Source of the DNA: an uncultured Candidatus Competibacteraceae bacterium
GTDB taxonomy: Bacteria > Pseudomonadota > Gammaproteobacteria > Competibacterales > Competibacteraceae
Length of the DNA stretch: 64,000 nucleotides
NCBI GenBank assembly: GCA_903879705.1
Contig: CAIRMO010000109.1
Location: 1-64,000 of the forward strand
Reading direction: 5' to 3'
In this document: in pieces, positions 31,277-45,842 of the stretch
How positions within the stretch are numbered: position 1 is the stretch's first letter
How the letters are laid out: the number at the start of each line of letters is the position of its first letter
Notes under the pieces: model-generated
What the model saw: only the letters and a program-made list of their open reading frames with translations
Databases searched by the model: none
Told to the model about the DNA's origin: nothing
Program-made: the position numbers and the translations under genes

Positions 31277-31356
31277 GCCTTCGATGCCCACAAATGCAAT
31301 AATAATCACACTCGTGCTAAGTATTCCCCACCCACTCCCACTCAGGAAAAATGGCG
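31277..31356 (+). promoter_or_regulatory. Second copy of the shared upstream element
   Basis: This is the near-identical counterpart of 25608-25684, starting TCGATGCCCACAAATGCAAT and ending in the same CAGGAAAAATGGCGATG start region. Divergence is concentrated in the middle (TAAGCGCACTCGT against TAATCACACTCGT). Confidence 0.5.
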
Positions 31357-34349
31357 ATGCCGCGTTACCCGCTACACCCTGTTCCATTCATGTTATTGAT
31401 TTTATTATTTTTTAGCCTCCCTGCCGGTGCGGCCACCTTCACCGTCACCAACATCAACGACAGCGGCTCCGGTTCGCTGCGCCAGGCGGTTCTCGACGCC
31501 AACGCAAATTTGGCGGCTATCCATGAGATCAATTTTCAAGCCGGCTTGACCGGAACCATTATCCTGACCAACGGGACAATCGAGATCAGCGGCCAGCTGA
31601 CTATCACTGGCCCGGGAGCCGATGTTTTGGCAGTCAGCGGTAATAAGGTTTCGCGGGTTTTCACAGTCGCTGGCCCAGGACCTACGACCATCCAAGGGTT
31701 GACCATTAAGGAGGGTAGAGCAGAACAGGGTGGCGGCATTTACAGCGCGGAAGGCTTTCTGACGCTGAACCATCTCACCTTCTCGAACAATTTAGCAATG
31801 AATGCAGCCAATGCAGCAACCAGCGGTGAGGGCGGCGGGCTTTACAATAAAGGTTCCACACTGACCGTGATGAACAGCACCCTGTCTGACAATACCACGG
31901 GCGGCGCTGGTGGCGGCATTCACAATTTTAACGGTCCCCTGACTGTTAGCAATAGCACTCTATCCGGCAATATAGCCGGCAGCAACGGCGGAGGCGGGAT
32001 TAATAGCTACGGGTCCACACTGACCGTAATCAACAGCACCCTATCCGGCAATGTAGCCGGCGACATCGATGGTATGGGTGGTGGGATTCGTATGAATTAC
32101 GGCGCATTAACCGTGCGCAACAGTACGCTGACAGGTAATACCGCTACCCGAGTCGGTGGCGGAATTTACAGTATGAATATTGCCACTGTAAATAATAGCT
32201 TGATCGTAGGTAACACTGCGTCTAGGGCCAAAGAAGTCTATCAGGCCTATTGGGCTGGATCATTCACATCGGGCTATAACCTGTTCGGTCAACAGAGCCT
32301 TGCCGGAGTCGAGAGCGTGACTCTGCTGGAAACCGATCAGATTTTAGCGGGTTTGGCAGATAGCGCTATTGGCCCCCTCGCCAACAATGGTGGCCCGACC
32401 CAAACCCACCTTCTGGTTGCGGGCAGCCCGGCGATTAACAAAGGCAACAACAGCCTGATTCCCATCGGCGTCACCACTGATCAGCGCGGTACCGGCTTCC
32501 CGCGCATCCTCGATGGCACGGTCGACATCGGCGCGGTCGAAGGCACGACCACTGGCCCGATCACCTACATCCTGACCGTCAGCAAGAGCAGCGGCGGCAA
32601 CGGCACCGTGACCAGCAATCCCGCGGGGATTAATTGCGGCGCGACCTGCACCGCGAATTTCACCAGCGGAACCTCGGTCACGCTGACCGCGACCCCGGAC
32701 AGCGGCTACAGCTTCAGCGGCTGGAGTGGCGATTGCACCGGCCCCAGTTGCACGGTGCTGATGGATGCGGCCAAAAACGTCACCGCGCTGTTTGCCAGTA
32801 TCCCGCCCCCCGCCTACCTGCTGAGCGTCACCCTGGCCGGCACCGGAACCGGAGTCGTCACCAGCGCCCCGGGCGGGATTGAGTGCGGCGCGGCCTGTCG
32901 GGCCAACTTCAGCGGTGAGGTCACCCTGACCGCCGTCCCGGCCAGTGACTCGGTGTTTGCCGGCTGGAGCGGAGCCTGCACCAACAGTAGCGGATCCTGT
33001 GCGGTGACAATGACTGCCGCTCAGAATGTGACTGCTACTTTCAATCCCGCGCCGCCTGCCACCTATTCCCTGACTGTCAGCAAGGCGGGAACGGGCACCG
33101 GAGCCGTGACCAGCAACCCGGTGGGGATTGACTGCGGCGCAACCTGTAGCGCCAATTTCAGCGGCAGAGTCACTCTGACCACCGCCCCGGCCAGTGGCTC
33201 GGTGTTTGCCGGCTGGAGTGGAGCCTGTACCAACAGTAGCGGATCCTGCACGGTGACGATGACTGCCGCTCAGAAGGTCACTGCCACCTTCAATGCCCGG
33301 TTCCCCTTGACCGTCGTCAAGGATGGACTTGGCTTGGGAACGGTGAACAGTACCCCAGCGGGCATCGCCTGCGGCCCCGCTTGCGGAACTCAGACCGCCC
33401 TGTTCTCTGGCAGCGTCACCTTGACGGCGATCCCGGTCGCCGGCTCCATCTACGTCGGCTGGACGGGCTGTAACTCGGTCAATGCCGCCACCCGGCAATG
33501 TACGGTCGCTATGACCGCTGCACTCACCGTGAAAGCCAATTTCGCCAGCGTACCGCCAGTTTCCCGCCTGAAAAACGGCAGTTTCGAGCAGTACAACGGC
33601 CGCAATCCGGGGGCGTCTTATCGAGCGATTCCCGCCGGATCGACCGATTTGCTGAACTGGACGGTCAGCGGCAAGGGCGTTGATTTGCTGGGAACCTACT
33701 GGAGCGCGGCTCATGGCAAGCTCAGTCTTGATCTCAATAACCTGGCATCAGGGGGAGTGGCCCAAGCCTTCGCGACCACGACCGGCAAGGTGTATACGGT
33801 CCTGTTCAATCTGGCCGGCAATCCCGATGGCTATAACCACGGGGCAGACCCGATTCCCGTGAAACGTGTGCGGGTCAGGGTGGCGGCTCAGCAGGTGGAC
33901 ATGCCCTTCGATGTCCGGGGTAAAACCGTCGGCAACATGGGCTGGCAAGTCAAGGCGTTGTCATTCACCGCCGCCAGGAACACCACGTTGCAATTCACCA
34001 GTCTGACCGCCGGCATGTTTGGCCCAGCCATTGATAATGTGCAGGTGTTTGAAGGGCGCTATGTCCCGCTGATCGTGACCAAAACGGGTAGGGGGCGGGA
34101 GTGGTGAAAAGCAGTCCAGCCGGGATTAGCTGCGGCACTGCCTGCGCCGGACCCTTCGTGCTGAACAGCATGGTGACGCTGGCGGCGGCCTCAGCCAACG
34201 GCGCGAAGTTCACCGGCTGGAGCGGAGCCTGCACCGGCACTGCGCCAACTTGCACGGTGAGTATGACCGCTGCGAAAACCGTCACGGCAACTTTTAATCC
34301 TGCTACCGGATCGTCTGACGCTACCACTGAGTCGTCGCCAGAACTCTAA
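31357..34349 (+). pseudogene. Paralogous secreted repeat protein, frameshifted near the 3' end
   Basis: The first 500 or so residues (signal peptide, SLRQAVLDAN opening, beta-helix) are close copies of the 25691 gene. Four B-like repeats follow (32560-33550). A roughly 170-residue domain then opens RLKNGSFEQYNG and ends FGPAIDNVQVFEG, resembling DUF642/choice-of-anchor beta-sandwiches, where the first gene has its RCC1 propeller. At 34090 one base is missing (KTGTGAG expected, KTGRG read), giving a TGA at 34105-34107. The remaining repeat continues in another frame to a TAA at 34347-34349. Without the deletion it would be about 999 residues. The truncated product might still be secreted. Confidence 0.75.
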
Positions 34350-34371
34350 TCGGGTAACAACCGCATCCAGA

Positions 34372-34407
34372 AAAGAGGCCGTCTTGATTCGTCAAGACGG
34401 CCTCTTT
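34372..34407 (+). terminator. Strong hairpin, probable terminator of the paralogue gene
   Basis: A perfect 15-bp stem (34372-34386 with 34393-34407, loop ATTCGT) begins 23 bases after the restored stop. Its right arm ends CTCTTT, followed by GTCTCTTCCCC, so the T-run is weak. It should work in both directions. Confidence 0.65.
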
Positions 34408-34492
34408 GTCTCTTCCCCTCCGCAACAGCAAAACCAGACCGCTCATATCGGCAAATGGACGAAGTCCCAGCCCGTGCGCTGCCAGCTTCATC

Positions 34493-35062
34493 ATGCCAGC
34501 CAATGATCTGACCTGCACCGAGACCTTCACCTTCAACAACTACACCCTGACCGTCGCCAAGACCGGCACTGGCGCGGGCACAATCACCGGCCCCAACATC
34601 GCCTGCGGACTGACCTGCGGCTAGGCCAAACAGCTCTACGCGCTGAATGCCAAAGTCACCCTCACCGCCGCCCCGGCGGTCGGCTCGACCTTTGGTGGCT
34701 GGACCGGCTGCGCCCCGCTGGCGGCCAACCCCCGGCAATGCACCGTGATCCTCAGCCAAGCCCGCAGCGTCGTCGCCCGGTTCACCACCCCCGCCGGCAC
34801 CGCCGCTCTGGTGGTCAGCAAAACCGGTGTGGGAACGGGCATGGTGAAGAACACCAGTCCACTCCCGGCGGGCAAGATCACCTGCAGGACTGCCTGTGTC
34901 GCCAACTTCCTGACCAGCCAGACAGTGACGTTGGTGGCTACCCCGGCGACCGGTTCCCGGTTCGGCAGTTGGCAGGGCTGCACCCCGAAAGTCGGCTTGC
35001 CGCTGCAATGCACGGTGCCGATGAACCAGGCCCGGAGAGTGATCGCGACCTTCAATCAATGA
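34493..35062 (+). pseudogene. Third, truncated copy of the repeat-protein 3' end with a nonsense codon
   Basis: From 34547 to beyond the stop at 35062 the DNA is nearly identical to 29671-30187 and its first trailing bases. In the codon for Gln (CAG at 29743), this copy has TAG at 34622-34624, which ends any product after 43 residues from the ATG at 34493. Other changes are few (G-to-A in GGGACT/AGGACT at 34883). This is a segmental duplication of about 520 bases that lost its beta-helix and propeller parts. Confidence 0.8.
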
Positions 35063-37115: not shown

Positions 37116-37204
37116 GGTGGATGCCCCAGCCGTCGTTGTCGTACCGAACCTTCACGTCTTTGTGACCCGATTCCGACAGCGTCGGGTAAGGAAGCGGCGT
37201 TGCT

Positions 37205-37375
37205 GCTGCTCACTCTCCTAAGAGCTGTACTTGAAAGTTTCCCTTCATATAGCTCAAGCCTCATCGAAGCCCCCTGTCACGGGGGCAGGTTCCGCAATAT
37301 TCAATTTCTGGGCTATGTACCTGCGGCCTTCCTGCGTTGCCTTCACGGGAGGTGGTATCGGTAGATCATGCGGTA
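37205..37375 (-). pseudogene. Possible group II intron relic
   Basis: On the minus strand, GAGCTATATGAAGGGAAACT, then TTCAAGTACAGCTCTTAGGA, folds as a hairpin (37222-37255). It matches the common intron element GAGCCGTATGAAGGGAAACT...TACGGTTCT. A second hairpin (GCCCCC-TGTCAC-GGGGGC, 37269-37286) and CTACCGATACC lie before it. No reverse-transcriptase frame or domain V was found, so at most a fragment remains. Confidence 0.4.
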
Positions 37376-37926: not shown

Positions 37927-39000
37927 ATGCGGTATTGTGATATAGCTCCCCGTGTTATCGATCTCAAGATAATCGCCGTCGTGGCAGGCAGTGTGATGCT
38001 CATCAGCTGTGCTACGCCCCTGACTCGCGAGGATCGCATTGGCCCCGATGATGGTTCCGATAGTTGTCGCCGCAATGTGGTGGCGCTCGACTCCACTGGT
38101 AATTTCTTTGCCGAGGATATGCTCAAGGGCGCGGTTGTTGGGGCAACGACTGGGGCATTAGCCGGTGGAATGCTCGCCATATTATCAGGGAAGTCCGGTC
38201 AAGACGTCGCCAAAAGCGCTTTGATTGGCGGTGCCGTAGGCGGGATGGCTGGAGCCATTGGCGGCTATTACAAGAGCCGAATGGAGCAAGGTCGTGATCA
38301 GGCCGTTTTAGCGATTAACAAAGATCTGACCCGTGAAGCCAGCGAACTCGATAAGGCTGATACCGCAGTTAGAGCCTTGATTACTTGTCGTGTGGATGAA
38401 CGTGACCAGATTCGCGCCGATTACGCTGCTAAACGGATATCCAAGAGTGAAGCGCAACGCCGCTGGAACCTACTCCAGGAACAGGTCCGCCGCGATAACA
38501 ACCTGATGCAGATGGTGGCCGAGAATATCGGCAAGCGCCAGGAAGAATACAAATACGCCAGCGACCAAGTGGCGGCTGAATTCGATATCTCCAAGTTGCC
38601 GCCGGCGGAACAACGAGCAGCGAAAAAACGCATCGCCGCCAACGATAAACGTATCGATGGAGAATACACGCAAGAGGTGGCCAAAATTGATCGGGATATT
38701 GCTAATCAGCGGAAAACCAAAAAGATGACGGCTGATCTTGATCAGGAGAAGAAGAGACGCCAAATCGCTGCTCAACAGGCACGCGATACCAAGAAGCAGG
38801 TCAATCAGAAGACCGGTGGTTCACAGGAGGCTGTGAAAACAGCCTCTAACTACTCCTCCACTCGAAATAAAGCGGAGAATACCGCTAAGACTGCTAAGAA
38901 TTATCAATCCGAGGTGGCTGTAGCGAATGACGGCTTCGAGAAGACCAGCCAGTGGGAGAATCTCCATAGGCCCGTCTATGCACTGCACATCGTAGGATAA
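37927..39000 (+). CDS. Lipoprotein with a glycine-zipper segment and coiled-coil
   Basis: The 357-residue product has an N-terminal hydrophobic segment ending in the lipobox LISC, with Cys28 as the lipid-bearing residue. Residues about 66-120 alternate Gly and Ala (GAVVGATTGALAGGMLA ... GGAVGGMAGAIGGYY), a glycine zipper that could insert in or lie on the outer membrane. The rest is charged and helical, rich in Lys, Gln and Arg. AAGGAGA lies 8 bases before the ATG. It heads the co-directional series with the two caspase-like genes, 100 bases upstream of the first. The function is unknown; anchoring of the proteases is a possibility. Confidence 0.8.
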   Translation: MRYCDIAPRVIDLKIIAVVAGSVMLISCATPLTREDRIGPDDGSDSCRRNVVALDSTGNFFAEDMLKGAVVGATTGALAGGMLAILSGKSGQDVAKSALIGGAVGGMAGAIGGYYKSRMEQGRDQAVLAINKDLTREASELDKADTAVRALITCRVDERDQIRADYAAKRISKSEAQRRWNLLQEQVRRDNNLMQMVAENIGKRQEEYKYASDQVAAEFDISKLPPAEQRAAKKRIAANDKRIDGEYTQEVAKIDRDIANQRKTKKMTADLDQEKKRRQIAAQQARDTKKQVNQKTGGSQEAVKTASNYSSTRNKAENTAKTAKNYQSEVAVANDGFEKTSQWENLHRPVYALHIVG

Positions 39001-39100
39001 AATCAAAGGGGAGGAGTGCCAAAATCGCTCCTTCCCTGTCAACCCGAAGTTATATCAGTAGTATTTTTAGAGTTTTCTCGAACTGATTAGGACGGTACTT

Positions 39101-42100
39101 ATGAAAACTTGCAATAATAAAAAAACCGGTTGTTGCCAGAAAAATTCAATTTTCATTAGCCAGTATTGGCTTATCACTCTGGTCATCGCGGTACTGACAA
39201 CATCTTTCCAAGTTTCAGCCGAACCCATCCCAGCGGTAGCAGAGTCGCCTTATTTGCGCATTGAAGCGTTTGATCACACGGCTATCATCAATCGAATGGC
39301 TTTGGACCAAGAAAAAACATTGCTGCTCACCGTCTCCGACGATAAAACCGCTCGCCTATGGAATTTGCCCGGAGGGGAACTTCGCGGTGTTTTGCGCGTC
39401 CCCATTGACAATGGACTTGAAGGCGCTATTTATGCAGGCGCTCTTTCTCCGGATGGTAAAACCGCGATTCTTGCCGGTTCCATTACGAATAATGAAAACA
39501 GTTTCTCTATATATCTTTATGACACCGCTAACCTGCGCATGAAGAGCCGTCTTTCCAAATTACCTTCGGAGATCCTTCACGTCGCTTATACTCCCGATGG
39601 GACACGTTTTGCTGCGGCTTTTGGTAGCGCGGGGGGTGTTATAGTGTGGGATAGCTCCTCTGGCAAAAAAGTGGCTGAGGATTTAAAATATGGCGCTGCT
39701 TGCAATTGGATTGTTTTTGCCGGCGATGGCCGCATGGCTACCAGCAGCGATGACGGTTTTATTCGTATCTACGACCCCAAAATGCAGCTTCTTCATCAAA
39801 TAAAAAGTAGCAATGGAAAGGAACCTTATAGCCTTTCCTTTTCCGAAGATGGTCACCTTCTCGCAGTGGGCTACAAGGATAAAATTAAGGTCGAAATTAT
39901 TGATACCACGCTTGGCAAAGTGGTCAAAACTCCTAGCGTTGACGGCTTGGCGGGAGAAGAACTCTCCTCAGTCGCTTGGTCAGGCGGAGACTTACTGGCG
40001 GCAGGTGCCGCTGCTAAGGGCGATAAACGAATGATTCGGCGCTGGCCACAAAGCGGTGGCAAGCCAATAGATGTGCCGATAGCGGAAAATGCGATTACTA
40101 GTTTGTCCACGCTACCAAATGGCGCATGGTTATATGCGACAGCGGAACCTTCTTGGGGGATTGTTACGCCGGATGGTCGCTTTCTAATGCGACACGACTC
40201 ACCCATCGCCGATTTTCGCAACATATTCCGCCATCGCTTTGCCCTTTCCGGTGATGGTCTAGCAGTAGAGTGGCGGCTCAATTCTAAACAAACAGCTCGC
40301 TTCCGCTTTAACTTGACCCAGCCCGATCAGGAGTTGACGATTAATCCCCCTCCCGATGCGGAATTGACCTCACCGATCACTAATGACGCCGTTTTGCCGG
40401 TTGATAAATGGCAAAATACTATGACGCCTGTCTTCAAAAAATCTCCGATTACTTTGGGTCGTAACGAGACATCCCGTAGCTTGGCGATTGCAGCAGATCA
40501 TAGCGGTTTTGTCTTAGGGACTGATCATTATATTCGTTGGTTTGATGCCCAGGGTGCCGAGTTGGTGAAAATGGATGTGCCGGCGTCGGCTGCTGGGGTG
40601 AATCTTTCCCGGGATGGCCGCTATTTGGTGGCCGCATTGGCCGATGGCGCTCTGCATTGGTATCGACTGCACTCGGCTCAACCGGGCCGTCAAGCCAGCA
40701 TTGAGGAATATGCTGGTTTGTTCCTCAGCGTTGATGGGGTGCGCTGGATCGCGTGGACTAAGGAAGGTTTCTTTGCCCACTCCATGAATGGCGGAAAAAA
40801 TTTGGCGGGTTATCACCTGAACCGTGGCAGTAATAAGACCCCCGAATGGATCGATTTCGGTCAACTCTATCAGAGCTTCTATTCGCCATCGCTGTTGAGC
40901 CGTAAAATGATTGGTGGACAAGAAGCGACTTTGCAAGCCCAATTTGCCCAAGCACAAGAAGTGGTCAAAAGACTTTTTGCTGAACCAGTCCCTGAGGTGG
41001 AATGGGTCGAATATTGTCTACTGGAAAAAACTGACACGGTCACCCGCGCTTTCCGTCGAGTGGAACCTGCGCCGGTTGCGACCTCCGCGACACCTGTTGT
41101 CACGCCTACAACAACATCAACGGGTACGGGTTCCTGTTCTCCCATCGGAAAAAGTACTACCCGCGCCTTTTCTCGGGCGCAGCAACCTATCCCCACGACT
41201 GCTGCTCCAGTAACAACCGCTACCGCTGCTAGTGAAGTCAAGCCAGAGGAGCCGGTGTTGCAAACGAATGACCTGCCTGCCGGTAAAAGACTGGTACGCT
41301 TGCGCTTCAAACTCAAGGAACGGAATGGCGGTGTGAGCGAGATTCAACTGTTGCGCAACGGCGTTGTCGTAGAAAATGCTAATGCCAAAACGCGGGGCTT
41401 TTCACGAGCGACTACGTCACCAGTTGCGAATAGCGCAGCCACTCCTGCCAAAGAAAATACGACAAAAGAAGGCGAAGTCATTCTCGAACGGGATTTAGAA
41501 CTGGACGAGGGAACTAACCGACTTCAAGTGCGGGCTTACGATGGCCGCTATAGCGCGAATGGTAAAAGTAGCATCGTTTCACTTGTAGTACCGGCGGTGG
41601 CGGCTCCTGTTGAGACAGCGACACGAGGTGAAAAACCTACCCCCCCAAAACTGTATGTCCTGTCAGTAGGGGTTAATAACTACCCGGGAAGTAATAGATT
41701 GACATATGCGGTGCCAGATGCCCGGTCTGTTGCTAAATTACTGGAGAACGATTTTAGTAAAAAGGACTACGAGAAAGTCTTTATCTCGCGCCTGTATGAT
41801 GAACAAGCCACTCGAGATAACATCGAAATGGCACTCAAAGCAATCGCCGAAAATCTCTCTGAGAATCGAAATCAACATATCTCTGAGGGGAAGAAGGATG
41901 TTGTGGTAGTTTACTTAGCTGGGCATGGAGCAAATTATAAAGGTACCTATTATTTTATCCCGATGTACAAGGAGGAGAAGCAGAATACAGATGATGACGA
42001 TCAGACGTTTTACGAAAAGATAGGTATTTCCCAGCAATGGTTGAGTGAGAAATTGGGAAAAATTTCCGAACACGCCAAGGGCGTTCTTCTTTTTCTTGAT

Positions 42101-42475
42101 TCTTGCCATGCAGGAGCCTACGATCCGAGCCAATCAGAATCTATCACTAAGGCAAAGGACAGTTTCGGAGAGTTGCTCATGATCGCTGCTGCGAGCTCCC
42201 AAGAAAGCGCCCAAGACCAGTACAAAACGCCAGATGGGATAAGCACTGAACACGGTGTTTTTGGTTATGTTGTATTCACTGGACTTGAGAAAGGGGCAGC
42301 AGGTGCAGATAAAAGAGTTACTGCGCTCCGACTTATCGAATTTGTTGGGGACGAAATGGAAAGAATTAGCAAACAAAAACAATATGCAAACCAACACCCG
42401 GCGGCGACTTCTCGTAATACAGATGTGAGCCGACTAAGGATTGGTTTGACTGCCGTCAAAGATGACAAAAAGTGA
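39101..42475 (+). CDS. Exported beta-propeller protein with a C-terminal caspase-like protease domain
   Basis: The 1124 residues begin with a signal peptide (cut expected after VSA, residue 40). WD40-like blades follow (DDKTARLWNLPGGELRGVL, LSPDGKTAILAGS, SDDGFIRIYDPKMQLL) over about 60-560. A Pro/Thr-rich linker region (645-860) holds a beta-sandwich-like stretch. The peptidase C14 fold runs from about 868 (KLYVLSVGVNNYPG). The catalytic dyad is His942 (YLAGHGANYKG) and Cys1002 (FLDSCHAGAYD). Caspase-like bacterial enzymes usually cleave after Arg or Lys, and the linker contains three TRAFSRA-type motifs. Location outside the cytoplasm is expected from the signal peptide. Confidence 0.88.
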   Translation: MKTCNNKKTGCCQKNSIFISQYWLITLVIAVLTTSFQVSAEPIPAVAESPYLRIEAFDHTAIINRMALDQEKTLLLTVSDDKTARLWNLPGGELRGVLRVPIDNGLEGAIYAGALSPDGKTAILAGSITNNENSFSIYLYDTANLRMKSRLSKLPSEILHVAYTPDGTRFAAAFGSAGGVIVWDSSSGKKVAEDLKYGAACNWIVFAGDGRMATSSDDGFIRIYDPKMQLLHQIKSSNGKEPYSLSFSEDGHLLAVGYKDKIKVEIIDTTLGKVVKTPSVDGLAGEELSSVAWSGGDLLAAGAAAKGDKRMIRRWPQSGGKPIDVPIAENAITSLSTLPNGAWLYATAEPSWGIVTPDGRFLMRHDSPIADFRNIFRHRFALSGDGLAVEWRLNSKQTARFRFNLTQPDQELTINPPPDAELTSPITNDAVLPVDKWQNTMTPVFKKSPITLGRNETSRSLAIAADHSGFVLGTDHYIRWFDAQGAELVKMDVPASAAGVNLSRDGRYLVAALADGALHWYRLHSAQPGRQASIEEYAGLFLSVDGVRWIAWTKEGFFAHSMNGGKNLAGYHLNRGSNKTPEWIDFGQLYQSFYSPSLLSRKMIGGQEATLQAQFAQAQEVVKRLFAEPVPEVEWVEYCLLEKTDTVTRAFRRVEPAPVATSATPVVTPTTTSTGTGSCSPIGKSTTRAFSRAQQPIPTTAAPVTTATAASEVKPEEPVLQTNDLPAGKRLVRLRFKLKERNGGVSEIQLLRNGVVVENANAKTRGFSRATTSPVANSAATPAKENTTKEGEVILERDLELDEGTNRLQVRAYDGRYSANGKSSIVSLVVPAVAAPVETATRGEKPTPPKLYVLSVGVNNYPGSNRLTYAVPDARSVAKLLENDFSKKDYEKVFISRLYDEQATRDNIEMALKAIAENLSENRNQHISEGKKDVVVVYLAGHGANYKGTYYFIPMYKEEKQNTDDDDQTFYEKIGISQQWLSEKLGKISEHAKGVLLFLDSCHAGAYDPSQSESITKAKDSFGELLMIAAASSQESAQDQYKTPDGISTEHGVFGYVVFTGLEKGAAGADKRVTALRLIEFVGDEMERISKQKQYANQHPAATSRNTDVSRLRIGLTAVKDDKK

Positions 42476-42524
42476 ATCCATCGTGCGATAACGCACCGCT
42501 AATACCTTCGAGGAAGATAGCCTC

Positions 42525-44282
42525 ATGAAAAAACACCATTTCTTTCGCTTTTTGAGCAATTATCCCCTGTCCAGATTGGGAAAAGCGTGTCTCTTTGGGC
42601 TGTGCGTCCTGAGCCTGTCAATCCCAGCCAGCGCCGCTGATATCTATGGCTTAGTCATCGGTATTAATGATTACCAAACATTCGACACGTTAGACGGGGC
42701 AGTGAACGATGCTCAAGGTGTTTTCGATGCACTAAATAGAATCGGTGCCAAGCAAGTCATCCTGCTGCTAGACAAAAAAGCAGACCGGGATACCATTTTC
42801 AGTAAATGGAAATCTCTCACCAGTCAAGCTAAAAAGGACGATATCCTTGTCTTCGCTTATGCCGGTCATGGTTCTCAAGAACCGGAACATGTAGCCAATT
42901 CGGAACTCGATGGCCGAGATGAAAATTTTATTCTGGCGGATTTCGCTCCACAGGGTCGATCCAGTTACCAGCGCATTGTTGACGATGAAATAGATGCTTT
43001 ATTTCGGGAAACTCCAGATTTGAAGATTTTATTCGTCGCTGATTCGTGCCATTCCGGAACGATGACCCGCGCCTTTGCTACACCGAAAAAATTTAAAAAG
43101 CGTTCGGTTCCCCCGCCTAATATCCAAGATGATGCTCTTATTGTGCTTTATGGCAAAAGTCGCGGAGAAAAAAACGTTAGTGCCAACCCTAGCAAGGAAG
43201 GTGGTACAGACAGCGAGGTTGCCACCAATGTTTTCAGTTTCAGCGGCGTTTCCGATGATGAAGAAGTCACTGAGTACCCGGACCCCGATACCAAAAAATC
43301 CGGTGGCGCCCTGAGTATGGCTTTCGCCAAGGTCTTGCGTTTCGTTGCTACCAACAACGAGCAAGGGGTTTCTAAGGAAAGGCTTCAGCACCTCATCACG
43401 GAAAACGTTCGAATGATCACCGAAGGACGGCAGGCATTACAGGTCGCTGGAAGTATCGATTTTTCCATCCCGATTAATGCCAAGCTATCGCCTACTAACA
43501 CAACGGATACAAAACCGTCAACTGATGACAAAGTAGCGCCAGTTGTACCCACCCAACAGTCAATAAACTTTACGGTATTCGTCGACAACGTCCCCGAAGC
43601 CGTTGCTGAAAATCAATGGCGACCCATTCTCGGTCAGGCGAAAACCACCAATGATAGGCAAACCGCTAACGCTATTTGGGACATAGGTAGAGAGAAGATA
43701 TTCTCTCTACTGGGCGATTTAGTTTATGATGGTCGTCAACCGAAGGTTCAAGAAACCAGAGCATTCTCTCGGGCGCAGAGCAAAACACCTGCTCCGGCGG
43801 GTAGCGTTGAAATCGCTTACGCCACTAAAGTATTCAATAAATTGATTGCGGTCGAGCGCATCAAAAAACGCAGTGAGACCGTAAGTCCGACTATGGTCTT
43901 GAAACCGAATGATCGCCTCCATCGTGCCGGTGAGCAGGTGACCTTGGAAACCAGTAATCAGCAATATCCTTATTTAACCCTCTTCAATATCGCATCCGAT
44001 GGGACTATCAATAACCTCTATCCCCTAAAGGAGGGAAACATCAACGATCCATTGGAAGTTCCAGTTGATAAGCCCTACGGATTACTCTTGAACGTAGAAC
44101 CACCGTATGGCAGTGATCATTTCGTAGTCATTTTCAGCGAGAAGCCCCTAACTGGATTGCATAAGGATCTTCAGGGCATGAACGGCGGTCAAAATGCCAA
44201 TCAAATTGAAGTCGCATTAGATCGTCATCTACAAGGAATCAAACACCAAATTGGCATTCATGGCGTTTTTACTGGATCATGA
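42525..44282 (+). CDS. Exported caspase-family protease
   Basis: The 585 residues have a signal peptide (cut after ASA, residue 37). The caspase domain starts directly: DIYGLVIGINDYQTFDTLDG, catalytic His115 in AYAGHGSQEPEH, and catalytic Cys175 in FVADSCHSGTMTRAF. The region after about 300 is not a recognised domain. It includes FTVFVDNVPEAVAENQWRPI and a C-terminal part (TMVLKPNDRLHRAGEQVTLE) resembling DUF4384, a domain often found with caspases. A TRAFSRAQ motif lies at 411-418. GAGGA is 13 bases before the ATG. The gene is 49 bases after the first caspase gene, with a hairpin (GTGCG-ATAA-CGCAC, 42483-42496) between. Confidence 0.88.
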   Translation: MKKHHFFRFLSNYPLSRLGKACLFGLCVLSLSIPASAADIYGLVIGINDYQTFDTLDGAVNDAQGVFDALNRIGAKQVILLLDKKADRDTIFSKWKSLTSQAKKDDILVFAYAGHGSQEPEHVANSELDGRDENFILADFAPQGRSSYQRIVDDEIDALFRETPDLKILFVADSCHSGTMTRAFATPKKFKKRSVPPPNIQDDALIVLYGKSRGEKNVSANPSKEGGTDSEVATNVFSFSGVSDDEEVTEYPDPDTKKSGGALSMAFAKVLRFVATNNEQGVSKERLQHLITENVRMITEGRQALQVAGSIDFSIPINAKLSPTNTTDTKPSTDDKVAPVVPTQQSINFTVFVDNVPEAVAENQWRPILGQAKTTNDRQTANAIWDIGREKIFSLLGDLVYDGRQPKVQETRAFSRAQSKTPAPAGSVEIAYATKVFNKLIAVERIKKRSETVSPTMVLKPNDRLHRAGEQVTLETSNQQYPYLTLFNIASDGTINNLYPLKEGNINDPLEVPVDKPYGLLLNVEPPYGSDHFVVIFSEKPLTGLHKDLQGMNGGQNANQIEVALDRHLQGIKHQIGIHGVFTGS

Positions 44283-44515
44283 TGCCAACTCACGATGATA
44301 TGCACTGGCATATCCCATGACTCAATTTCACTATCGTTATCAAAAATCAGGGCCATGTTTCTAACCGTTATGTCCTGTTGACAAACCAATCCTCGCTCCC
44401 GAAAACTGCAGAGAATGTGCAGGGTTGGGAGCAGGTTGTGTGCCACATAGACTCTGTCTATGTACCATGTTCGACTTGGATTTTATCCAGTCATTCCGAA
44501 TGAGAGGAGTAGACT
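44283..44515. other. Gap with a perfect 8-bp hairpin
   Basis: ACATAGAC-TCT-GTCTATGT at 44445-44463 is the only clear structure in these 233 bases. No T-run follows, so it could be an operator for the small gene downstream. No coding frame is convincing. Confidence 0.4.
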
Positions 44516-44995
44516 ATGAAAGCCATAATCAGGCCGTTTTTTGTGCTTGTTGCCACCATCCTTATTTTGCCGGCTGCTGTTAATTTGGCTGTCGCTGGTG
44601 AAAATAACCCCAACGATAATGCGAAGACCGAAATCGATACTGATCAGGCAGCAGGGTGGGCAAAATTCGCGAATGAAATCGCACAGTATGGTAAAGCCCA
44701 GCAAGATCCCATCGCTTTGATCTCTGCTGCCCGCATACTGAAGGAAAGCCGCATTAAGGAAGTCATTTCCGACAAGGCGTCCGACAAGGTGTCTGACAAG
44801 GCGTCTACAGCACCCACTTCGACTCAGCCAGCCGCCGAAGCTATAAAGGAATGGCTGGACGAAGCGCGCAAGATCGCCGAGGCATCGGATAAAAACAAAA
44901 CCGAGATCCTGGCTCTCGCTGATGAAGTGGGTAAAAAGACTAGGGGCTACTATACCCGGCATTATTACTACCGTTATCACCCAACTTGCCACTAG
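44516..44995 (+). CDS. Small exported protein of unknown function
   Basis: The 159 residues start with a signal peptide (cut expected after AVA, residue 27). The mature part is charged and mostly helical, with a three-fold SDKxSDK repeat near residues 84-95 and a Tyr/His-rich end (YYTRHYYYRYHPTCH). GAGAGGAG lies about 8 bases before the ATG. It follows the caspase pair on the same strand but after 233 bases, so it may have its own control. The His/Tyr/Cys tail could bind metal; that is a guess. Confidence 0.65.
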   Translation: MKAIIRPFFVLVATILILPAAVNLAVAGENNPNDNAKTEIDTDQAAGWAKFANEIAQYGKAQQDPIALISAARILKESRIKEVISDKASDKVSDKASTAPTSTQPAAEAIKEWLDEARKIAEASDKNKTEILALADEVGKKTRGYYTRHYYYRYHPTCH

Positions 44996-45514: not shown

Positions 45515-45622
45515 TTTATCATCTAAATTAGCCCATTCTTGTTCGCACTAATCGCGATAACGAGTATTGGTAAAAAACTCGCCGTGGCTAAGGCAACTCG
45601 CAAAAAATATCCCCAACGGGAC

Positions 45623-45737
45623 CTGGCTCCCACGCTCCAGCGTGGGAGCCAGTCCAGACGCTCCAGCGTCCCGGATGATCCCGAAAGGCGGACCGCTGGA
45701 GCGGTAAGACCGCATTCCCACGCTGGAACGTGGGAAC
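45623..45737. repeat. Cluster of four palindromes with a GCTCCAGC core
   Basis: A perfect 14-bp-arm palindrome (45623-45652, two-base loop) is followed by GACGCTCCAGCGTC (45657-45670), ACCGCTGGAGCGGT (45692-45705) and TTCCCACGCTGGAACGTGGGAA (45716-45737). All share GCTCCAGC or its complement. This is a repeat family in an otherwise empty region, probably a non-coding mobile or structural element. Confidence 0.75.
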
Positions 45738-45842
45738 GAGAATGGGAGGGTATTTATTGCGCCTTGCCTAAGTTCATGGCGTAAACAAGAGGCCGGGAAT
45801 GGCTGCCAAATGTCTGCATATTCCCTTGATTAACGGAAGGAG

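Follow-up and report, generated by a model that had tools for sequence, protein, structure and literature searches.

A Conserved Four-Gene Set of a Candidatus Competibacteraceae Bacterium Encodes Two Predicted Exported Caspases That Share a Covarying Linker Motif

Introduction

Caspase-fold proteases of bacteria, known as orthocaspases or prokaryotic metacaspase-like proteases (PF00656, for example MaOC1), possess a p20-type domain with a His/Cys dyad and acidic S1 residues that are expected to prefer Arg or Lys, and WD40 and DUF4384 are known among their companion domains. A 2012 survey, which also discussed extracellular action, found 46 sequences that consist only of a metacaspase domain and a single N-terminal helix, possibly a signal peptide (PMC3501461). 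Both exported prokaryotic caspases and WD40-caspase fusions have already been described (PMC3501461, PMC8283722). In this study we describe four co-directional genes at positions 37927-44995 of a 64,000-nucleotide stretch of DNA (the window; contig CAIRMO010000109.1, assembly GCA_903879705.1) from an uncultured Candidatus Competibacteraceae bacterium. The genes encode a lipoprotein, a caspase fused to a beta-propeller (the propeller-caspase), a second caspase (caspB) and a small protein. The two proteases share the features of orthocaspases listed above but differ from them in that both members of the pair are predicted to be exported, in that they have a covarying linker motif in common and in that one of them combines an N-terminal propeller with a C-terminal caspase.

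Two other described settings resemble this locus. One is the TagQ-TagR sensor of the H1 type VI secretion system (H1-T6SS) of Pseudomonas aeruginosa, where TagQ, a lipoprotein of the outer membrane, recruits a partner in the periplasm. The gene set likewise combines a TagQ-homologous lipoprotein with apparently exported partners, and in Azospirillum it lies beside tss and tag genes. However, its lipoproteins score 44-66 bits against a TagQ family cut-off of 300, no tagR, tagS or tagT was seen, the partners are caspases, and the window has no adjacent T6SS genes. The other setting comprises plasmid neighbourhoods of Rhizobiales and Azospirillum in which apparently exported caspases, some with DUF4384 proteins, lie next to OmpA-like proteins; a TR[GS][LI] linker motif is present in several of the latter. 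Unlike the present locus, these neighbourhoods have no annotated propeller-caspase or TagQ-like lipoprotein. Among the anti-phage caspase systems of PADLOC, only the generic caspase model PDLC02987 gave a convincing match, with other matches at or below 16.5 bits and the named partners absent. A search of the open literature, which was not complete, found nothing on Competibacter and caspases, this gene set or its motif.

To our knowledge, few substrates have been identified for bacterial caspases, and we know of no description of a caspase-based envelope signalling relay in Gram-negative bacteria. The locus is of interest because its apparently active caspases are predicted to be placed in the envelope, and because a motif that occurs almost only in two partner proteases, stays invariant within fast-changing linkers and covaries by lineage is a concrete and cheaply testable candidate cleavage site.

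Results

A preliminary description of this DNA, made from the letters alone, proposed four co-directional genes with export signals, including two caspase-fold proteases with intact dyads, one of them fused to a propeller. All four open reading frames (ORFs) were recovered on the + strand, with intergenic gaps of 100, 49 and 233 bases. Their features are as follows.

37927-39000, +: TagQ-like, putative outer-membrane lipoprotein gene, 357 residues (ORF, Pfam and TagQ match; orthologues 65-76% identical)
38008-38010, +: Cys28 of the lipoprotein lipobox (LISC)
about 38122-38271, +: glycine-zipper region of the lipoprotein (Pfam Gly-zipper match below cut-off)
39101-42475, +: putatively exported WD40-propeller, linker and caspase protein, 1124 residues (ORF and Pfam)
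39101-39220, +: putative signal peptide of the propeller-caspase, QVSA|EP (hydropathy; AxA site kept in orthologues)
39251-40990, +: WD40-type beta-propeller part (Pfam matches at residues 58-353; homology to about residue 630)
41042-41059, +: linker motif 1, TRAFRR, propeller-caspase residues 648-653
41159-41176, +: linker motif 2, TRAFSR, propeller-caspase residues 687-692
41390-41407, +: linker motif 3, TRGFSR, propeller-caspase residues 764-769 (loop within the immunoglobulin-like region)
41660-42388, +: caspase domain of the propeller protein (His942 at 41924-41926, Cys1002 at 42104-42106)
42525-44282, +: caspB, putatively exported caspase with C-terminal DUF4384, 585 residues (ORF, Pfam and alignments)
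42525-42635, +: putative caspB signal peptide
42651-43349, +: caspB caspase domain (His115 at 42867-42869, Cys175 at 43047-43049)
43065-43076, +: caspB post-cysteine loop TRAF, residues 181-184, resembling the linker motif
43755-43772, +: linker motif 4, TRAFSR, caspB residues 411-416, between caspase domain and DUF4384
43923-44147, +: DUF4384 domain of caspB (Pfam)
44516-44995, +: small, putatively exported protein, 159 residues (ORF; conserved with the set)
44516-44596, +: putative signal peptide of the small protein
44939-44959, +: TRGYYTR at the C terminus of the small protein, a motif variant

Both proteases have, in their linkers, a motif of the form [ST]-R-x-Phi-x-R, which reads TRAFSR in the window and TRGLSR, TRGRGR or SRDYRR in other lineages. 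A search of the whole genome that holds the window with a TR[AG]F[ST]R-type DNA pattern returned three matches, all within the two caspase genes; a reversed control pattern also returned three, so that the count is unremarkable whereas the placement is not. The linker of the propeller protein is invariant at 18 of 18 motif positions across the four complete Competibacteraceae orthologues, compared with 11 of 79 positions elsewhere in that linker (Fisher P = 2e-12), and the corresponding values for the caspB linker are 6/6 and 5/18 (P = 0.003). The codons of the invariant positions vary synonymously among the orthologues. The density of [ST]R[AGD][FYLR]xR is 1.89 per 1000 residues in the proteases of the set and 0.048 in the other ORFs of the loci that were read, a ratio that is descriptive as the pattern was chosen after the sequences of the set had been viewed. 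Propeller-caspases from loci without the lipoprotein or caspB lack the motif in nine of ten cases, the tenth (L097) having two stray matches. Four further propeller-caspase loci (L178-L181) have neither lipoprotein, caspB nor motif, and the motif is likewise absent from the propeller-caspase of Pseudoroseomonas, which has no adjacent caspB.

Between lineages the motif changes in step at the two propeller-protein sites and in the caspB linker, and within each lineage its fourth residue is the same at these sites. The sequences below are given in the order propeller site A, propeller site B, caspB linker.

Competibacteraceae: TRAFSR, TRGFSR, TRAFSR (fourth residue F/F/F)
G437: TRGFSR, TRGFAR, TRAFKR (F/F/F)
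G450: TRGLSR, TRGLSR, TRALKR (L/L/L)
G446: TRGRGR, TRGRSR, TRGRGR, the last occurring twice in caspB (R/R/R)
G366: SRDYRR, TRDYRR, SRDYRR (Y/Y/Y)

When the full motifs were shuffled among lineages, the observed within-lineage similarity was reached in 2 of 14,400 arrangements, a permutation that ignores phylogeny and involves five or six lineages. Shared descent could account for the lineages with F but not for Y, L and R changing together at every site. The segment that follows the catalytic Cys of caspB (SGTMTRAF in the window) also tracks the fourth residue of the motif in four of six lineages.

The set of genes is conserved beyond the window. Within a comparison sample of 39 Competibacteraceae genomes, including the one that holds the window (G000), the complete four-gene set is found in identical order in five genomes of four genera (G000, G010, G015, G020 and G047), with different flanking genes in each, and the small protein never occurs without the set. 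The same four genes are present in the same order, at about 34% identity, in a distant gammaproteobacterial family (G366). Partial versions consist of the lipoprotein, propeller-caspase and caspB together (G437 and G491), propeller-caspase and caspB at a contig edge (G450 and G446), and lipoprotein and propeller-caspase with no adjacent caspB (G406 and Pseudoroseomonas). In three Azospirillum species the genes lie on plasmids, with caspB divergent from the lipoprotein and propeller-caspase. Pairing of propeller-caspase with caspB extends to at least six lineages. Since the ratio of nonsynonymous to synonymous substitution (dN/dS) is 0.06-0.24 where computable, indicating purifying selection, and since the gene order is kept in five genomes, the set is not a chance arrangement, and the view that these genes belong together holds, as the neighbourhood search did not find them apart everywhere. 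Operon structure is indicated by gene spacing and order only, because promoter-like matches at the locus show no excess over chance. No empty insertion site could be demonstrated, as even the two same-genus relatives that were read differ in their gene order upstream of ribF. One scan of viral contigs revealed no relative, and no plasmid relative of the small protein was found.

Both proteases belong to the Peptidase_C14 family (PF00656), with scores of 43.3 bits for the propeller-caspase and 63.2 bits for caspB against a curated Pfam cut-off of 21.4 bits, and their matches extend to 195/233 and 221/233 of the profile. Pfam places WD40 and Peptidase_C14 in one chain in the propeller-caspase, which confirms the fusion, and identifies DUF4384 in caspB. 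The propeller-caspase runs from an N-terminal propeller through a linker and immunoglobulin-like region, so called by appearance as it has no Pfam match, to a C-terminal caspase domain. The dyads His942/Cys1002 and His115/Cys175 are intact and invariant in relatives, and in caspB, which can be aligned to the Mca1 and TbMCA2 chains, the dyad is in place. The S1 aspartates Asp62/Asp173 of caspB and Asp873/Asp1000 of the propeller-caspase are conserved and are positional counterparts of Asp95 and Asp211 of the trypanosome metacaspase TbMCA2, which have a reported role in substrate binding or activity. Both caspases are predicted to be active and specific for basic residues. The caspase domain of the window propeller protein is 52-54% identical to those of its orthologues, which are 73-80% identical to one another in this domain, while the propeller part is 73-79% identical to the same orthologues; the caspase domain of the window protein has probably been swapped. 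The small protein has no Pfam match.

All four products look exported as judged by hydropathy and rule, with a LISC lipobox in the lipoprotein (Ala at +2, Cys28 kept in relatives) and AxA-type sites (VSA, ASA and AVA) in the other products that are kept in orthologues. The preliminary description considered export to be the point of note, and this is where it loses weight: the signals are present, but export of bacterial caspases is not new by itself, given the signal-peptide-like sequences of the 2012 survey (PMC3501461). What goes further is that the two proteases share a covarying motif in their linkers and that relatives are found at T6SS clusters.

The window lipoprotein matches the TagQ model (NF041250) at 56 bits (E 3.7e-15), below the threshold for membership, and the lipoproteins of the set as a whole match along much of the TagQ length with E values of 1e-11 to 1e-18. 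True TagQ proteins, at 334-347 bits, are present in other Competibacteraceae genomes, and by these scores the lipoproteins of the set are TagQ relatives and not TagQ members. No tagR, tagS or tagT is found in the window set or in the annotated Azospirillum clusters, neither of which has the full complement of a TagQRST module. As a distant homologue of an outer-membrane lipoprotein with a periplasmic partner, the lipoprotein could plausibly anchor the set, as had been suggested on the strength of its glycine zipper; the match to that element exists but falls under the Pfam cut-off.

In three Azospirillum plasmids the lipoprotein and propeller-caspase genes directly precede tssL-tssM-tagF-vgrG, with tagH downstream. 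For example, the order in A. lipoferum is lipoprotein, propeller-caspase, tssL, tssM, tagF, vgrG, DUF4123, PAAR, tagH and a Ser/Thr kinase, with a PP2C phosphatase further on. In Pseudoroseomonas the two genes adjoin vgrG-tagH-tssK-tssL-tssM. DNA read around the set in Competibacteraceae, G366, G437, G491, G406 and G450 contains no adjoining T6SS genes. The genome that holds the window has T6SS loci elsewhere; since VipB occurs in 37 of 39 family genomes and the gene set in five, co-occurrence within the family is uninformative, and a T6SS link in this organism is a hypothesis.

Discussion

From the observed gene order, domains, catalytic and S1 residues and the conservation and covariation of the motif, we infer, with about even confidence, that the four genes encode a single envelope module that functions as an outer-membrane-tethered, arginine-specific two-step protease relay cutting at the linker motifs. 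The module would consist of a TagQ-like outer-membrane lipoprotein, a periplasmic propeller-caspase, a periplasmic caspB and a small protein that may be a helper, a substrate or a regulator. The lipoprotein would anchor a propeller-based complex in the periplasm, where an envelope trigger would switch on caspB. Activated caspB would then cut its own linker and those of the propeller-caspase at the motif, setting the second protease domain free from the propeller and the membrane tether. Cleavage would probably follow the second Arg, with the motif occupying P6-P1, although the exact bond is a guess; this placement suits caspases because clan CD proteases chiefly recognise residues before the cut. 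The most likely main reader of the motif is caspB, because the propeller protein of the window has kept its motifs despite a probable swap of its own caspase domain, and because the propeller-caspase of Pseudoroseomonas and most others that lack caspB have no motif.

Several observations count against this relay. Azospirillum has SRAFAR twice in its propeller-caspase and no copy in the caspB linker, and G406 retains the motif without an adjacent caspB. Signal peptides were assessed by rule only, and export is a prediction; AlphaFold2 models of both proteases, made with two-sequence alignments, had predicted local distance difference test (pLDDT) values of 37 and 32, too poor to judge linker exposure. 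The disregard of phylogeny and the few lineages in the covariation permutations weigh in the same direction.

Conservation and covariation of the motif would fit any shared recognition pocket, and the motif may instead be a docking or assembly tag, in which TR-x-Phi-x-R is bound by the caspase domains or by another envelope protein and either holds the complex together or blocks the active site as a pseudosubstrate. The presence of TR-x-Phi directly after the catalytic Cys of caspB, with an exact match of the fourth residue in the four lineages mentioned, is in keeping with this. However, several copies in long interdomain linkers rich in Ala, Thr and Pro, together with S1 acids specific for basic residues, fit processing more simply, and we consider docking possible but doubtful. 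A similarly tentative place is given to a T6SS envelope sensor, a caspase-based counterpart of TagQ-TagR that would inform the PpkA/Fha phosphorylation pathway of attack or contact. Such a sensor can be reconciled with the protease relay, of which it would be the downstream effect. It is suggested by the tss, tag and vgrG genes adjoining the Azospirillum and Pseudoroseomonas relatives, by the extent of the TagQ match and by the T6SS loci of the window genome, but has to contend with the absence of adjacent T6SS genes from the DNA read in the other lineages, an uninformative distribution within the family and TagQ scores far under the cut-off. If the link is true in Azospirillum, proteolysis would be added to the known envelope sensing of attack. 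A more elaborate version, which we think unlikely as a whole, is a periplasmic cascade of two exported caspases with motifs coevolving by lineage and a TagQ-like tether, which would act as a proteolytic sensor of envelope damage or contact, control T6SS in some lineages and perhaps cut OmpA-type proteins at TR[GS][LI].

Two further explanations are less likely. An exported death or fratricide module, whose caspases would digest envelope proteins of the same cell or of neighbours, draws on matches to the PADLOC "caspase" model, on the patchy and relocated distribution of the set and on the proposal of extracellular programmed cell death or fratricide for metacaspases (PMC3501461). We regard it as quite improbable, given that the set is without the partner gene of any described defence system, that one scan showed no viral relative and that a TagQ-like lipoprotein suggests tethering over release. 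Extracellular protein degradation has also been suggested for bacterial metacaspases (PMC4933709), and the two caspases could be ordinary secreted digestive enzymes for feeding or turnover, with the motif serving merely as a self-activation site; a digestive protease should need neither a beta-propeller nor a lipoprotein tether nor a strict set of four genes, which makes this explanation very unlikely.

Additional observations

OmpA-family proteins encoded in the vicinity of caspase, CHAT or T6SS genes frequently have TR[GS][LIV] in the linker before the OmpA domain (L093 74-694; L146 9156-10025; L172, L173, L175, L177, L170 and L171). For example, the motif is TRSL in Neorhizobium and Bradyrhizobium OmpA proteins that adjoin caspases, and TRGL in a Paracoccus OmpA protein near T6SS genes. 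The OmpA proteins of A. ramasamyi and A. lipoferum contain RTRGLALGTG and their propeller-caspases SRGLALGTG; nine residues, RGLALGTGA, are common to the two proteins in Azospirillum. The motif-bearing OmpA-type proteins are candidate substrates on this resemblance. The OmpA motif may also be independent of the motif in the proteases, because it is missing from the OmpA proteins that adjoin caspases in Azospirillum sp. TSA2s, and because TRGI occurs in a Pseudoroseomonas OmpA protein about 85 kb from the relative of the set. On the mobilizable plasmid p2 of Azospirillum sp. TSA2s (L168), a cluster of three caspase, three OmpA-family and two DUF4384 genes adjoins genes for VirB type IV secretion, and plasmid p2 of Rhizobium sp. 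NZLR1 (L169) has, in a row, genes for a DUF4384 (OmpA-like) protein, a caspase, a trypsin-like protease, a serpin and a Ser/Thr kinase.

Other caspases were seen within the Competibacteraceae. The window genome has only one outside the set (G000:C38:7891-8544, L058), a 446-residue protein that is exported by appearance and contains SRGLAR, which resembles the linker motif. A 120 kb contig of G022 (contig 26, L028-L030) has at least five caspase-like matches, two of which are tandem caspB relatives. In G047 (contig 271, L025), frameshifts or a stop break both protease genes while the lipoprotein and small protein genes are intact; the breaks may be assembly errors because the contig is of low coverage.

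Within the window, an Rfam match to domain V/VI of a group II intron (37181-37257, - strand, 45.9 bits, above the gathering score) lies between hemL and the gene set and is likely an intron remnant. An association of the set with group II introns was considered and dropped, as relative loci L024-L027 and L096 have no intron match. A large, apparently exported repeat protein with GWSG..C-type repeats is encoded at 31351-35062, where the repeat continues beyond the stop in another frame (34745-35062), which suggests frameshift or decay. Finally, the intergenic stretch at 45620-45750 is rich in inverted repeats of the CCCACGCTCCAGCGTGGGAGCC type.

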